A DNA stretch of 6,899 nucleotides. Origin: Candidatus Rokuibacteriota bacterium (GTDB lineage: Bacteria > Methylomirabilota > Methylomirabilia > Rokubacteriales > JACPHL01). This document shows, piece by piece, positions 1-6,899 of this stretch (positions within the stretch are counted from its first letter, which is position 1; the number at the start of each line of letters is the position of its first letter). A program made the position numbers and the translations under genes. The stretch covers positions 1 to 6,899 of the forward strand of contig JACPHL010000073.1 in the NCBI GenBank assembly GCA_016188625.1, in the 5' to 3' direction. The notes beneath the pieces are model-generated. The model was not told where the DNA came from. It saw only the letters and a list, made by a program, of their open reading frames with translations, and did no database searches.

Positions 1-750
1 ATCGTCAACGGGATGGCGCTCCACGGCGGGATCATCCCCTACGCCGCGACCTTCCTGGCCTTCTCCGACTACATGCGGCCGGCGATCCGGCTGGCGGCGC
101 TCACGGAGCTTCGGGTGATCTTCATCTTCACCCACGACTCGATCGGGCTCGGGGAGGACGGCCCGACCCACCAGCCGGTCGAGCAGCTCCTCTCGCTCCG
201 CGCCATCCCCGGCCTGGTGACCCTCAGGCCCGCCGACGCCACCGAGACGGCGGAGGCCTGGCGGGTGGCCCTCCAGCGCCACGGGCCGACGGCCCTGATC
301 CTCAGCCGCCAGGCCCTACCGGTGCTCGATCGCGCCAAGCTGGCGTCTGCCTCGGGGGTGGCCCGGGGCGCCTACGTGCTGGCGGACGGCGCGTGGCCCC
401 CCGACGTCATCCTGATCGCCAGCGGGTCCGAGGTCCACATCGCCCTGGAGGCCCAACGGATCCTCGGGGAGCGCGGGATCGGGGCGCGGGTGGTGAGCAT
501 GCCATCATGGGAGCTGTTCGACGGCCAGCCTGAGGCCTATCGCGCGGAGGTCCTGCCACCCTCCGTGTCCGCGAGGGTCGCCATCGAGGCGGGGCGCTCG
601 CTGGGCTGGAGCGCCTACGTCGGCGATCGAGGGACGATCATCGCGCTTGACCGGTTCGGGGCCTCGGCGCCGGCGGCGAAGCTCTTCGAGGCGTTCGGCT
701 TCACGCCGGAGCAGGTGGCCGCGCGGGCGGCGACCGCGCTCGGGCGGTAA
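1..750 (+). CDS. tkt: Transketolase, C-terminal part (5' end outside window)
   Basis: Transketolase moves two-carbon ketol units between sugar phosphates using thiamine diphosphate, in the cytoplasmic non-oxidative pentose phosphate pathway. Frame 1 is open from the first base to a TAA at 748-750, giving 249 visible residues of a protein usually about 660 long. Visible are the second half of the pyrimidine-binding domain (GMALHGG at visible residues 4-10, [16 protein letters not shown] at 44-59) and the C-terminal domain (LIASGSEVH, then the FGASAP and EAFGFT motifs). The GEDGPTHQP stretch is the second transketolase signature; its Asp and His (visible residues 53 and 57) correspond to substrate-contacting residues in characterised enzymes. 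The catalytic Glu that activates the cofactor should lie just upstream of the window. The closely related DXS is less likely because the C-terminal half matches transketolase throughout. The stop codon overlaps the ribosome-binding site of the next gene, as expected within an operon. Confidence 0.97.
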
Positions 751-755
751 AGGAG
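749..755 (+). promoter_or_regulatory. Ribosome-binding site deciding the tal-pgi start
   Basis: AAAGGAG is a strong Shine-Dalgarno match that overlaps the tkt stop codon. It lies 9 nt before the GTG at 765, a normal spacing. It is 15 nt before a second in-frame GTG at 771 and only 2 nt before an out-of-frame ATG at 758. Spacing favours 765. From memory, many relatives begin with a Met-Asn-Pro-Leu-like sequence, which would match the 771 codon, so that start remains possible. Confidence 0.7.
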
Positions 756-764
756 ACATGACTG

Positions 765-1883
765 GTGGGCGTGAACCCCCTGGAAGGGGCGCGGCGGCTC
801 GGGCAGGGCGTCTGGCTGGACTACCTCCGGCGCGGCCTGATCGCCTCCGGCGAGCTGGCCGAGCTGATCGAGGCCGGCCTCAGCGGCGTCACCTCGAACC
901 CGACCATCTTCGAGAAGGCGATCGCGGGGAGCCGGGACTACGACGAGCAGCTCCGGGCCCTGATCGCCGAGGGGAGGGAGGTCGAGGCGATCTTCGAGGG
1001 CCTGGCCGTCGAGGACATCCGGGCCGCGGCCGACCTCCTCGCCCCGGTCTACGACAAGACGGAGGGGCGCGACGGCTTCGTCAGCCTGGAGGTCTCGCCG
1101 CGGCTGGCCCATGACACGGAGGGGACCATCGAGGCCGCGCGCCGCCTCTGGCGCGCCGTCGGGCGCCCCAATGTGATGATCAAGGTCCCGGCCACCCCGC
1201 CCGGGATCCCGGCCATCGAGCGGCTGATCGCCGACGGGGTGAACGTCAACGTGACGCTGATCTTCTCCATCGAGCGCTACGAGGCCGTGGCCGAGGCGTA
1301 CCTGGCGGGGCTCGAGCGGCGCCTCCGGGAGGGGCAGCCGATCGACCGGGTCGCCTCCGTCGCGTCCTTCTTCCTGAGCCGAGTCGATAGCCTCGTAGAC
1401 AAGCGGCTCCAGGCGAAGCTCCGCGAGGCCGGGAGCGAGGACGAGGCCCACCGGCTCGAGGCCCTCCTGGGTAAGGCCGCCATCGCCAACGCGAAGCTCG
1501 CCTACGCGCGGTTCAGGGCGATCTTCGCCGGCCCGCGGTGGGCGACTCTCGCCTCCCGCGGGGCGCGGGTCCAGCGGCCGCTCTGGGCCAGCCCCGGGAC
1601 CAAGAACCCCGCCTACAGCGACCTCCACTACCTGGAGCCGCTGATCGGGCCGGACACGGTCACCACCCTTCCCCCCGCCACACTGGAGGCCTTTCGCGAC
1701 CACGGGCGCGTCCGCGCGACGCTGGAGGAGGGCCTGCCGGAGGCGGAGGCCACCGTCCGGGAGCTGGCGGCCGCGGGCGTCGATCTCGACCAGGTGACCC
1801 GCCGGCTCGAGGAGGAGGGGGTGAAGGCCTTCGCCGACTCCTTCGACGCCCTCTTCGCCTGCATCCAGGCGAAGCGGGACCTC
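765..1883 (+). CDS. tal: Transaldolase domain of the Tal-Pgi fusion
   Basis: Transaldolase transfers a dihydroxyacetone unit from sedoheptulose-7-phosphate to glyceraldehyde-3-phosphate through a Schiff base, linking pentose phosphates to fructose-6-phosphate. The domain covers residues 1 to about 373. Motifs seen are GVTSNPTIFEKAI (residues 41-53), the Schiff-base motif MIKVPAT with Lys140 (codon 1182-1184), VNVTLIFS (161-168), VASFFLSRVD (199-208) and a TKNPAYSD stretch near 279-286. These identify the long transaldolase type found in Tal-Pgi fusions. One difference is Pro277 in RPLWASPGTKN, where I expect Thr in most relatives; this comparison is from memory. The GTG start at 765 is chosen from the Shine-Dalgarno spacing. 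The frame continues past 1883 into permease-like and then meaningless sequence up to a stop at 3053, so the protein as written would have a foreign tail. The active-site Lys and surrounding barrel look intact, so activity of this half is plausible. Confidence 0.93.
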
Positions 1884-2070
1884 CTCCGCTCCGGGCTCCT
1901 CGCGGCCTGGCTCCTGGCGGCGGTACCCGCGCTCACCGAGCTGACGCTCTCCGTCATCCTGTGGTCGGCGGGGAACGAGACGATCGGCGTGATGGCCTTC
2001 AACCTCCACGAGGAGGGGAAGGTCCTGCTCTCCGCCGCGCTGGCCACGCTGATCGTGGCGGCCTCGCTCG
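1884..2070 (+). other. ABC-transporter permease-like fragment inside tal-pgi
   Basis: In the transaldolase frame, residues about 374-434 read as a hydrophobic segment (LLAAWLLAAVPALTELTLS, 378-396), then ILWSAGNETIGVMAFNLHEEG (398-418), then a second hydrophobic segment (LLSAALATLIVAAS, 421-434). I recognise this order as the end of binding-protein-dependent transport permeases of the iron/thiamine/phosphonate type (BPD_transp_1), just after their EAA loop: an L-x-ELT membrane segment, an L-W-S-x-G-x-E-T-I loop, an F-N-L-x-E-E-G turn and a last helix. Neither transaldolase nor phosphoglucose isomerase has membrane helices. No permease start, EAA loop, stop, inverted repeats or target duplications are visible, so this is only a fragment. 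The left edge is near 1880-1895 and the right edge near 2060-2076. The rightmost bases can form a 5-bp inverted repeat (CTCGG/CCGAG, 2067-2079), which may be chance at this GC content. Confidence 0.75.
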
Positions 2071-3546
2071 GCGGCCGAGCTGACGGAGTTCGCCCGGGAG
2101 GTGGTCCGGGACGGATTCCGGCACGTCCTCCTCCTGGGGATGGGAGGATCCAGCCTCTGCCCCGAGGTCCTGGCCCGGACCTTCGGCCCGGCGCGCGGCT
2201 TCCCGCGGCTCCACGTCCTGGACTCCACCGCCCCGGCGGCCATCCGGGCCGCCCAGGGACGGGTCCAGCTCCCGCGCACCCTCTTCATCGTGGCCAGCAA
2301 GTCGGGGACCACGCCGGAGGTCCATGCCTTCCACCAGTACTTCTTCGCCCGGGCGCAGGCGGCGAGCGGCGAGCGCGCCGGCGGGCAGTTCGTCGCCATC
2401 ACCGACCCCGGGACGCCTCTCGAAGCCACCGCCCGGGCGCAGGGGTTCCGCCGGGTCTTCCTGAATCCTCCGGACATCGGCGGCCGGTACTCCGCCCTCT
2501 CCTACTTCGGCCTCGTCCCCGCGGCCCTGCTGGGGCTCGACCTGGCCCGGCTCCTCGACCGCGCGGAGCGGATGGCCCAGGCGTGCGTCGCGTGCGTCCC
2601 GACCCGGGAGAACCCGGGCCTCTGGCTCGGCGCGATCCTCGGGGCGCTGGCGCGCCGAGGGCGGGACAAGCTGACCTTGCTCTGCTCGCCGGAGCTGGCC
2701 GCCTTCGGCGCCTGGCTCGAGCAGCTCGTCGCCGAGAGCACGGGGAAGGAGGGGCGGGGGATCGTCCCGGTGGAGGGCGAGCCGCTCGGCCGGGCGGACC
2801 GGTACGGGGAGGACCGGCTCTTCGTCTACCTCCGACTCGACGGAACCGCCGATTCCGGGCTGGACGCCAGGATCAGGCGGCTGGCGAAGCGGCACCCCGT
2901 GGTGACCCTTCACCTGGAGGACCCCTACGATCTCGGCGGCGAGTTCTTCCGCTGGGGTTTCGCCACCGCCGTGGCCGGCGCCGTGCTCGAGGTCGATCCG
3001 TTCGACCAGCCCAACGTCCAGGAGTCGAAGGACCTCACGCGCGACCTCCTTGACGAGTACAAGGCCACCGGGACCCTCCCCGAGGGCGAGCCGATCTGGT
3101 CGGACGAAGCGATCGCCCTGTACGGCGATGGCGCCACCGCCTCGGCCGTGGCGGAGTCCCGGAGCTTCGCCGCCGCCCTCAAGGCGCACCTCGCCCTGCT
3201 CCGGCCCGGGGATTACGCGGCGCTCACCGCCTATCTCCATCGGGGCCCCGGGACGGAGGAGGCCCTGACCGCGATCCGGCGCCGGGTGCGGGACCGCTTC
3301 AGGGTCGCGACCACCGTCGGCTACGGCCCGCGCTTCCTGCACTCCACCGGCCAGCTCCACAAGGGCGGCGGGGACAACGGCCTCTTCCTCCAGTTCACGG
3401 CGGACGACCGGACGGACCTCCCGATCCCGGGCGAGCCTTACAGCTTCGGGATCATGAAGCGGGCGCAGGCGCTTCGTGTCCATCTCATGGGGGACCCCGA
3501 GGCCGGGCTCGCGAAGGTCCGGCGCGCGGTCGAGCGGATCCGGTAA
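2071..3546 (+). CDS. pgi: Glucose-6-phosphate isomerase domain of the Tal-Pgi fusion (N-terminus lost)
   Basis: Phosphoglucose isomerase interconverts fructose-6-phosphate and glucose-6-phosphate. The homologous frame begins with AAELTEFAREV near 2071 and ends in TAA at 3544-3546. Motifs in order are LLGMGGSSLCPEV (first SIS domain, about 2131-2169), the phosphosugar-binding SKSGTT (about 2296-2313), DIGGRYSALS (matching the first PGI signature, about 2473-2502), AESTGKEG (about 2731-2754), FDQPNVQESK (matching the second PGI signature, its Lys codon at 3028-3030 being the likely catalytic Lys) and HSTGQLHKGG (about 3340-3369). All core motifs of the fusion-type isomerase are therefore present. 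What is missing is the helical segment that normally precedes the first SIS domain. The first GTG in this frame is at 2101, within the conserved region and without an evident ribosome-binding site, so it is probably not a natural start. A 24-nt gap follows before gnd. Confidence 0.9.
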   Translation, partial: AAELTEFAREVVRDGFRHVLLLGMGGSSLCPEVLARTFGPARGFPRLHVLDSTAPAAIRAAQGRVQLPRTLFIVASKSGTTPEVHAFHQYFFARAQAASGERAGGQFVAITDPGTPLEATARAQGFRRVFLNPPDIGGRYSALSYFGLVPAALLGLDLARLLDRAERMAQACVACVPTRENPGLWLGAILGALARRGRDKLTLLCSPELAAFGAWLEQLVAESTGKEGRGIVPVEGEPLGRADRYGEDRLFVYLRLDGTADSGLDARIRRLAKRHPVVTLHLEDPYDLGGEFFRWGFATAVAGAVLEVDPFDQPNVQESKDLTRDLLDEYKATGTLPEGEPIWSDEAIALYGDGATASAVAESRSFAAALKAHLALLRPGDYAALTAYLHRGPGTEEALTAIRRRVRDRFRVATTVGYGPRFLHSTGQLHKGGGDNGLFLQFTADDRTDLPIPGEPYSFGIMKRAQALRVHLMGDPEAGLAKVRRAVERIR

Positions 3547-3555
3547 GCGAGCGGG

Positions 3556-3563
3556 AAAAGGAG
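3556..3563 (+). promoter_or_regulatory. Ribosome-binding site of gnd
   Basis: AAAAGGAG lies 7 nt before the ATG at 3571, inside the 24-nt gap after the isomerase stop. It is the clearest Shine-Dalgarno sequence in the window after the one before tal-pgi. It supports the ATG at 3571 and shows that gnd can be translated independently of the broken gene upstream. Confidence 0.75.
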
Positions 3564-3570
3564 CGAAGGG

Positions 3571-4473
3571 ATGGAACTGGGCATGATCGGACTGGGGCGG
3601 ATGGGCGGCAACATGGTCCTGCGCCTCCTGAGGGGCGGCCACGCCCCGGTGGTCTACGACCGCGACCCGGCCACCGTCGCCCGCCACGTCGAGGCGGGGG
3701 CGCGGGGGGCGGCGTCCCCGGCGGACCTGGTCGAGCAACTCCGGGCCCCGCGCGCGGTCTGGATGATGGTGCCCGCGGGCCCGCCGGTGGAGGAGACCAT
3801 CGAGGCCCTGCTCCCGCACCTCGCGCCCGACGACATCGTGATCGATGGCGGCAACTCCCACTTCAAGGATTCGTCCCGCCGGGCGGAGGCGCTCCGGGCG
3901 AAGGGGATCCACTACCTCGACGCCGGGACGAGCGGCGGGATCTGGGGGCTCGAGGAGGGCTACTGCCTGATGGTCGGGGGCGAGAAGGCCGCCTTCGACC
4001 GGATCGAGCCGGTCCTGCGGACGCTCGCGCCCGAGGACGGCTACCTCCACACCGGCCGGAGCGGCAGCGGCCACTTCACCAAGATGGTCCACAACGGGAT
4101 CGAGTACGGGCTGATGCAGGCCTACGCCGAGGGGTTCGAGATCCTGAACGCCTCGGGCCTCGACCTGGATCTGGCCCGGATCGCCCGGCTCTGGAACCGC
4201 GGCAGCGTGGTGCGCTCCTGGCTTCTCGAGCTGACCCAGGCCGCCCTGGAGAAGGACCCGCGCCTTCAGGGGATCGAGGGGTACGTGGAGGACTCCGGGG
4301 AGGGGCGCTGGACCGTGCTCCAGGCCCTCGACTCCGAGGTGCCGGCCCCGCTGATCGCGCTCTCCCTGATGGAGCGCTTCCGCTCCCGCCAGGCGGAGTC
4401 GTTCGGCAACAAGCTCCTGACCGCGCTCCGCCGCGAGTTCGGCGGCCACGCCGTCCGGACGAGATCAGGCTGA
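3571..4473 (+). CDS. gnd: 6-phosphogluconate dehydrogenase, decarboxylating, short form
   Basis: The enzyme oxidatively decarboxylates 6-phosphogluconate to ribulose-5-phosphate, CO2 and reduced nicotinamide, closing the oxidative branch opened by Zwf. The protein has 300 residues, matching the short bacterial form and not the roughly 470-residue E. coli type. Visible are the Rossmann motif GLGRMGGNM (residues 7-15), MMVPAG (65-70), the substrate-binding stretch DGGNSHFKDS (92-101), DAGTSGGIWG (117-126), the catalytic segment HFTKMVHNGIEYGLMQAYAEG (168-188) with Lys171 and Asn175, and DSGEGRW (241-247), ending in FGGHAV. Asp30 at the end of the second Rossmann strand hints at NAD rather than NADP use, but Arg31 follows, so this is only an inference. 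Start ATG 3571 has a good ribosome-binding site. The stop is 3 nt before zwf, which implies translational coupling. The gene looks intact. Confidence 0.96.
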   Translation: MELGMIGLGRMGGNMVLRLLRGGHAPVVYDRDPATVARHVEAGARGAASPADLVEQLRAPRAVWMMVPAGPPVEETIEALLPHLAPDDIVIDGGNSHFKDSSRRAEALRAKGIHYLDAGTSGGIWGLEEGYCLMVGGEKAAFDRIEPVLRTLAPEDGYLHTGRSGSGHFTKMVHNGIEYGLMQAYAEGFEILNASGLDLDLARIARLWNRGSVVRSWLLELTQAALEKDPRLQGIEGYVEDSGEGRWTVLQALDSEVPAPLIALSLMERFRSRQAESFGNKLLTALRREFGGHAVRTRSG

Positions 4474-4476
4474 GCC

Positions 4477-6042
4477 ATGGAGACGAAGGTCGTGGCCACG
4501 GTCCCCTTGCCGGGTGCGGCCCCCGCCTACGCGGTCCCCGGGGCCTTGGGCCTGGTGATCTTCGGCGCTTCGGGCGACCTGACGGCCCGCAAGCTGCTGC
4601 CGGCCCTCTACACCCTCGCCGCCCAGGACCTCCTGCCCCGCTGCTTCTCCGTGGTCGGCGTGGCCCGGAGCGAGCTGGGGCAGGACGACTTCCGCCAGCG
4701 GATGCGGGCGGCCGTGGAGTCCTTCTCCCGCCTGGGCCCGGTCCGCGAGGAGGTGTGGGAGCGCCTCGCCGGGACCATCCACTACCTGTCGGCCTCTGTC
4801 GAGGACCCCCAGGGCGCCCGCCGGCTCCGGGACCTCCTGGCCCGGGTGGATCGGGCCTGCGGCACCGAGGGGAACCGCCTCTTCTACCTCGCGACCCCGC
4901 CCGCCGCCTACGCCGGGATCGTGCGGGCCCTCGGGGCGGCGGGCCTGGCGTCGGGCGGCGACGGGCGGGGCTGGGCGCGGATCATCATCGAGAAGCCCTT
5001 CGGCCGGGACCTCGAGAGCGCGCGCCAGCTGAACCGCCAGGTGCTGGAGGTCTTCCGGGAGCCCCAGGTCTACCGGATCGACCACTACCTCGGCAAGGAG
5101 ACGGTCCAGAACATCCTCGCCTTCCGCTTCGGCAACAGCATCTTCGAGCCCCTCTGGAACCGTCGCTACGTGGACCACGTCCAGATCGCGGTGGCGGAGG
5201 ACCTGGGGGAGGAGGGGCGGGGCGACTACTACGACCAGGCCGGCGCCCTCCGGGACATGGTCCAGAACCACCTGCTCCAGCTCCTCTCCCTGGTGGGGAT
5301 GGAGCCGCCCGCCTCCTTCGAGGCCGAGGCGATCCGTGACGAGAAGGTGAAGCTCCTCCGGGCGATCCGCCCGATCCCGCCGGACGCGATGGCCGAGCGG
5401 ACGCTCCGGGGGCAGTACACGGCCGGGGTGATCGGGGGGCGCCCGATCCGCGGCTACCGCGAAGTGGCCGGCGTGGCCCCGGACTCGACGACCGAGACCT
5501 ACGTAGCCCTCAGGCTCACCATCGACAACTGGCGCTGGGCCGGCGTGTCGGTCTACATCCGCACAGGGAAGGCCCTCCCCACGCGCGTCACCGAGGTGAC
5601 CATCCAGTACCGCGAGCCGCCGCTGCTCCTCTTCCGGCACGCGGATCACGCCGACCACGAGGGGCCGGATCGCCTCGAGCCGAACCGGCTGTCGCTCCGG
5701 ATCCAGCCCGACGAGGGGATCGCCCTCCGCTTCGGCCTGAAGCCCCCCGGGGAACGGATCCGCCTCGAGCCGGTCGTGATGGACTTCGGCTACGGCGAGG
5801 GCTTCGGGCGGGAGTCGCCCGAGGCCTACGAGCGCCTGCTCCTCGACGCCATGCGGGGCGACTCGACGCTCTTCATCCGGGGGGACGAGGTCGAGGCGGC
5901 GTGGACGCTGGTGACCCCGATCCTGGAGGCCTGGGAGGCCTCCAACGCCAAGGCCGTCCACCCCTACCCGGCGGGGAGCTGGGGGCCCGAGGCCGCCGAG
6001 GAGCTCATCGGGCAGGACGCCCGGCAGTGGGTCCGGCTCTGA
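4477..6042 (+). CDS. zwf: Glucose-6-phosphate 1-dehydrogenase
   Basis: The enzyme oxidises glucose-6-phosphate to 6-phosphogluconolactone and makes NAD(P)H, the entry step of the oxidative pentose phosphate pathway. It has 521 residues, slightly above the usual 480-510, mostly through an N-terminal extension of about 25 residues before the first strand. The cofactor-binding motif is IFGASGDLTARKLLPAL (28-44). Further motifs are EKPFGRD (172-178), the active-site signature RIDHYLGKE (200-208) with Asp202, His203 and Lys207, and MVQNHLLQLL (261-270), whose His265 corresponds to the catalytic base of characterised enzymes. The domain is complete to the C-terminal GSWGP near 500-504. The ATG at 4477 lies 3 nt after gnd and has no strong ribosome-binding site; a GTG at 4534 closer to the conserved start is a possible alternative. 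The stop is 2 nt before fbp. Coupled expression with gnd fits their consecutive roles; the lactonase that acts between them is not in this window. Confidence 0.97.
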   Translation: METKVVATVPLPGAAPAYAVPGALGLVIFGASGDLTARKLLPALYTLAAQDLLPRCFSVVGVARSELGQDDFRQRMRAAVESFSRLGPVREEVWERLAGTIHYLSASVEDPQGARRLRDLLARVDRACGTEGNRLFYLATPPAAYAGIVRALGAAGLASGGDGRGWARIIIEKPFGRDLESARQLNRQVLEVFREPQVYRIDHYLGKETVQNILAFRFGNSIFEPLWNRRYVDHVQIAVAEDLGEEGRGDYYDQAGALRDMVQNHLLQLLSLVGMEPPASFEAEAIRDEKVKLLRAIRPIPPDAMAERTLRGQYTAGVIGGRPIRGYREVAGVAPDSTTETYVALRLTIDNWRWAGVSVYIRTGKALPTRVTEVTIQYREPPLLLFRHADHADHEGPDRLEPNRLSLRIQPDEGIALRFGLKPPGERIRLEPVVMDFGYGEGFGRESPEAYERLLLDAMRGDSTLFIRGDEVEAAWTLVTPILEAWEASNAKAVHPYPAGSWGPEAAEELIGQDARQWVRL

Positions 6043-6044
6043 CG

Positions 6045-6899
6045 ATGACAACGCCGGGCATCACCCTGACCCGTCACGTCCGGGCCGAGGAGCAGGCCTA
6101 CCCGGATCAGGCGGCGGAGCTCAGCTCCCTCCTCACGCAGATCGCGTGGGCCGTCAAGGTCATCACCGATGCCCTCCGGGGGGCGGAGCCCCGGGATCTC
6201 CTGGGCGGGACGGGCGGTGTCAACGTCCAGGGCGAGGCGGTCAAGAAGCTGGACGTGTTCGCGAACGAGACCTGCCTCGCCGCCTTCCGCCAGATGGGGC
6301 TGGTCTGCGCGGTGGTGTCGGAGGAGATGGAGGAGCCGTTCCTCCTGGTCGAGGATTGCGAGCGCGGCGCGTATACCCTCTTCGTCGATCCCCTGGATGG
6401 TTCCTCGAACCTCGACGTCAACGGGACGGTGGGCTCCATTTTCTCCGTCCACCGCCGACGGGGTCCCGGGGGTCGGGGCGACGAGCCGGATCTCCTCCGC
6501 CCCGGCTCGGCGCAGGTGGCCGCGGGCTATGCCCTGTACGGGCCGAGCACGGTCCTCGTGTACACCGCGGCCCACGGGGTGTACGGATTCACGCTCGACG
6601 CCTCCATCGGCGAGTTTCTCCTCTCCCACGACCGGATCCGCATTCCCGCGCGCGGCCGGACCTACAGCGCCAACGAGGGGAACGCCCGGGGCTGGTCCCC
6701 CGCGATCCGGAGATTCCTGGAGGCCCTGAAGGCCCCCGATCCCGCGCGGGGCGGCCCCTACTCCGCCCGCTACTCCGGCGCCCTGGTCGCGGACGTGCAC
6801 CGGATTCTTCTCGACGGCGGGGTGTACCTCTACCCGGCGGAGCCGACCGATCCGCGGCGACCGGGGGGCAAGCTCCGGATGATGTACGAGGCCGCGCCC
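6045..6899 (+). CDS. fbp: Fructose-1,6-bisphosphatase class I, N-terminal part (3' end outside window)
   Basis: This magnesium-dependent phosphatase hydrolyses fructose-1,6-bisphosphate to fructose-6-phosphate in gluconeogenesis, the Calvin cycle or a cyclic pentose phosphate pathway. The frame from ATG 6045 is open without interruption to the last base, 285 codons of a protein usually about 330-350 long, so roughly 50-60 residues are missing. Motifs are NVQGEAVKKLDVFANE (60-75), the metal-binding SEE (92-94), FVDPLDGSSNLDVNGTVGSIF (113-133) with Asp115 and Asp118, VAAGYALYGPST (158-169), the substrate-binding RYSGALVADVHRILL (242-256), GGVYLYPA (258-265) and KLRMMYEAAP (276-285) with the metal ligand Glu281. 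This fits class I and not the GlpX-type class II enzyme. The start is 2 nt after the zwf stop; no clear ribosome-binding site is seen, so translation probably depends on coupling. No frameshift or missing catalytic residue is visible in the present part. Confidence 0.96.
   Translation, partial: MTTPGITLTRHVRAEEQAYPDQAAELSSLLTQIAWAVKVITDALRGAEPRDLLGGTGGVNVQGEAVKKLDVFANETCLAAFRQMGLVCAVVSEEMEEPFLLVEDCERGAYTLFVDPLDGSSNLDVNGTVGSIFSVHRRRGPGGRGDEPDLLRPGSAQVAAGYALYGPSTVLVYTAAHGVYGFTLDASIGEFLLSHDRIRIPARGRTYSANEGNARGWSPAIRRFLEALKAPDPARGGPYSARYSGALVADVHRILLDGGVYLYPAEPTDPRRPGGKLRMMYEAAP

Follow-up and report, generated by a model that had tools for sequence, protein, structure and literature searches.

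A bifunctional transaldolase (Tal)-glucose-6-phosphate isomerase (Pgi) gene in this draft genome reads without interruption from its transaldolase half into sequence that resembles the end of an ABC permease. Does the locus encode a new kind of enzyme, such as a membrane-anchored transaldolase, or is it an error of assembly? The evidence below suggests that the segment is most likely an assembly stitching error and not a new kind of enzyme, and that a functional membrane-anchored transaldolase is unlikely.

Genomic context of the Tal-Pgi gene

The window, by which we mean the entire stretch of DNA analysed (6,899 bp), is the whole of contig C191 from a 2.6 Mb draft genome, derived from environmental DNA, that is 84.5% complete and divided into 344 contigs. 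Along the contig lie the end of a transketolase gene, Tal-Pgi, gnd, zwf and the start of an fbp-like gene, with all names other than Tal-Pgi taken from reading the translations. Apart from the join described below, the reading frames of Tal, Pgi, gnd and zwf are open throughout and undamaged.

Positions 1-6899 form a compact pentose-phosphate gene cluster, and its gene order is partly repeated in relatives. The tkt and tal genes form one block on contig C277 of genome G025, and tal, pgi and zwf lie together on a single contig, C36, of genome G009. G025 seemingly carries two different Tal-Pgi fusion genes, on contigs C277 (locus L044) and C289, which are 72% and 54% identical, respectively, to the C-terminal part of Tal in the window. 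Short transaldolase frames of 369-415 aa are found at loci L032-L040 in genomes G035, G034, G056, G016, G052, G011, G013, G045 and G057. Tal therefore seems to occur in the order both as a fusion and as a separate protein.

Both halves are native but a conserved stretch is missing

The transaldolase half is native and occupies positions 765-1880 of the forward strand (TAL_FSA, E = 3.7e-86). It matches positions 3-376 of the PRK09533 family (E = 3.5e-170, 567.9 bits) and shares 73.5% amino acid identity with its G025 homologue. The Pgi half lies at positions 2074-3546 of the same strand (PGI, E = 5.5e-13), without its first conserved stretch and out of frame with Tal. It matches PRK09533 positions 443-945 (E = 7.9e-198, 659.4 bits) and is 72.7% identical to the G025 homologue. 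We took membership of PRK09533 (NF007080) to be a full-length match above the curated cut-off of 712 bits in one reading frame; the window gene gives two partial matches in different frames. The closest Tal-Pgi homologue, that of G025, is about 73% identical on both sides, retains positions 377-442 in frame, and scores 1021 bits on PRK09533 although a contig end cuts the gene.

The first-pass annotation, made from the letters of this DNA, had stated that the native linker is absent. The PRK09533 matches agree, stopping at 376 and resuming at 443, and the loss exceeds the linker. About 66 family positions (377-442) are absent from the window gene, and the missing part consists of the linker plus a conserved R(L/I)W(A/S)RDA.LW...LGWL motif early in the Pgi half. 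Among five relatives (G025 and four others), the motif is strict in three and looser in two; it is absent in the window. The four relatives besides G025 also keep the native linker. Without this conserved stretch Pgi would probably be impaired, even had the reading frame been preserved.

The replacing segment is a C-terminal part of an ABC permease

In place of the linker and the start of Pgi, positions 1881-2072 of the forward strand encode a C-terminal permease fragment corresponding to residues 479-542 of a permease from G003, a genome of the same order and another family. Identity to the G003 protein is 95% over the 64 residues, and the DNA at 1881-2076 matches the 3' part of its gene at 87% over 196 bp (E ~1e-60). 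The segment is also about 73% identical to a permease of NC10 bacterium RIFCSPLOWO2_12_FULL_66_18, the best match among named genomes, 73% identical to a permease in G059, a genome of the same class, and about 48% identical to other permeases in the order. Judged by these alignments, the similarity is far beyond chance. They uphold the earlier reading of an iron/thiamine-type permease C-terminus, and they tighten its limits from 1875-2080 to 1881-2072 in protein or 2076 in DNA.

The G003 homologue is an intact 559-aa two-domain permease that matches BPD_transp_1 (PF00528) at 2.5e-22, along with the PhnU2, modB, CysT and ThiP models, all below their cut-offs. Its gene forms a row with those of an ATPase and a binding protein, both roles being read from their sequences. 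From its sequence relatives, the donor is of the Fe/thiamine/phosphonate ABC permease type. A BPD_transp_1 match on the segment itself, which had been proposed as a check, was not obtained: a Pfam search of the 66-67-aa segment returned no match. The segment by itself is too short for Pfam scoring, and its homology is therefore established through G003, a bona fide member of BPD_transp_1 that it resembles. A PDB search of the segment found no match, and an NCBIfam search gave only a weak match to PhnV (E = 0.005). The closest relatives of the segment (in G003, G059-G061 and G063) all lie at permease loci, in open frames of permease size or longer. Base composition does not set the insert apart from its surroundings.

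One join preserves the reading frame and the other breaks it

The left join falls at positions 1881-1895 of the forward strand, where CTCCTCCGCTCCGGG encodes LLRSG and is compatible with both parents. In the same frame, the G025 Tal-Pgi has LLTSG and the G003 permease has LLRSG. At the right join, positions 2070-2076 on the same strand, the parents share at most GGCGGCC and the frame changes. Tal and the permease segment share the frame of position 765, whereas the Pgi frame is that of position 2074. As first noted from the sequence, the Tal frame has no stop from 765 through the permease-like stretch.

The insert had been described as about the size of the part it replaced. The two are similar but not equal, with 213 nt between the aligned halves in G025 and 190 nt in the window, and the frame shift at the right join places Pgi out of frame. 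Past the permease part, the Tal frame continues for about 326 codons, to position 3053, in wrong-frame Pgi DNA. A clean membrane-anchored transaldolase is therefore not encoded, and the suggested truncation finds no support as a functional product.

The join is very recent or absent from the organism

Between the insert and the G003 permease gene there are 25 differences, of which 2, 1 and 22 fall at codon positions 1, 2 and 3. Since the differences are mostly at third positions, the segment evolved as part of a working permease until now. Away from the join, neither Tal nor Pgi is interrupted by a stop codon or a damaged frame. Together, the lack of decay in Tal and Pgi and the third-position pattern indicate that the join is either very recent or absent from the organism.

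The draft genome lacks an identifiable donor locus

We used GyrB as an identity yardstick in place of RpL2, for which we found no match in G003. GyrB is 78% identical between this genome and G003. Between G003 and G059, the permease segment is 75% identical and GyrB 55-56%; by these comparisons GyrB is the less conserved of the two. An identity of 95% to G003 is thus in keeping with a permease that belongs to this organism itself or to a near relative. As this is about the identity expected of the organism's own permease, a donor in the same genome is possible for a real event.

The same genome had indeed been named as a potential source, but a check of the bin for an intact donor permease found none. 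Searches of the bin for the rest of the donor permease (best 31-33%), its ATPase (best 50%) and its binding protein (best 27%) revealed no close orthologue, which leaves the piece without a home there and counts in favour of a chimera. The bin is incomplete, so absence of the donor locus is weak evidence; it is nonetheless expected of a piece whose source lies outside the bin. No second Tal-Pgi copy was found in the bin, nor was the native linker found elsewhere in it. A weak 31% match on contig C264, inside a 1095-aa frame, emerged from that search and was taken as chance. A plasmid search gave only partial permease matches, which covered part of the segment at about 74-83%.

A chimeric contig is the likeliest explanation of the locus

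We infer that the segment is most probably the product of a chimeric contig or a library artefact, the draft genome being highly fragmented. The native Tal-Pgi and an ABC permease of the same organism or a close relative, two genes with no relation to each other but present in one sample, would have been stitched together at short common sequence of about 15 nt on the left and at most about 7 nt on the right. The real gene would then most probably have a normal linker, some 70 aa long, and its product would most probably be an ordinary bifunctional transaldolase/glucose-6-phosphate isomerase. Each of the two unrelated parents is intact in a relative, Tal-Pgi in G025 and the permease in G003. 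The shortness of the contig within a highly divided bin, the native linker of the relatives, the frame break and the lack of decay likewise point to a chimera. The first-pass annotation had raised replacement, perhaps more likely by chimeric assembly, and the analysis supports this reading. Two observations count against a chimera. Assemblers usually work with k-mers of 21 or more, and the microhomology at the joins seems shorter than this, although the overlap length is uncertain. The identity to G003 also makes a same-genome donor of a real event possible.

Such an event would be a very recent illegitimate recombination, or something like gene conversion, in which permease DNA replaced the linker and inactivated the Tal-Pgi fusion in this strain; we consider this unlikely. 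Tal might still work, and Pgi would be made only by internal initiation. The LLRSG coding sequence common to both parents, the similar size of the lost and gained DNA, and the matching composition are consistent with it. It requires, however, two joins inside unrelated genes with very little homology; a conserved Pgi stretch must also have been lost while no part of the locus shows decay, and the bin contains no donor copy. A genuine replacement would amount to a loss of function and not to an innovation. That a real, recent, microhomology-driven replacement split Tal-Pgi, with a transaldolase bearing a hydrophobic tail as the outcome, is more doubtful still.

It is highly improbable that domain replacement has produced a functional membrane-anchored transaldolase. 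The Tal frame is open across two hydrophobic segments, but it meets no stop after the permease part, and the permease piece has no partner helices. Moreover, the segment's closest relatives sit at permease loci while the closest Tal-Pgi relatives have an ordinary linker. Finally, a normal but divergent Tal-Pgi linker would suit the position and rough length of the segment, but we reject this reading almost outright given the identity to a permease in both protein and DNA and the lack of similarity to the linkers of all five relatives with which the locus was compared.

Implications and comparison with known systems

Short intragenic chimeras in draft genomes create false domain fusions, which calls for caution, and whole-gene contamination checks would probably miss them. 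Two signs flag the present case even without reads: the frame shift at one join and the mostly third-position divergence between the insert and the related permease gene. A literature search for the fusion found nothing.

Outside the replaced stretch, the two halves cover the PRK09533 bifunctional transaldolase/phosphoglucose isomerase almost completely. Unlike members of that family, the window gene has permease sequence in place of positions 377-442, and its halves are out of frame. Compared with two-domain ABC permeases of the Fe/thiamine/2-aminoethylphosphonate type, the segment is 95% identical to the C-terminal part of the G003 member, but the window holds 64 of about 559 residues and no complete permease domain. 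Chimeric metagenome contigs are a known artefact class, and chimerism is the target of tools such as GUNC (PMC8201837). Our case resembles such contigs in its short foreign piece, the short shared sequence at its joins and its fragmented draft genome. It differs from the usual metagenome chimera in being intragenic and very short, and gene-level chimerism tools would probably miss a case of this type.
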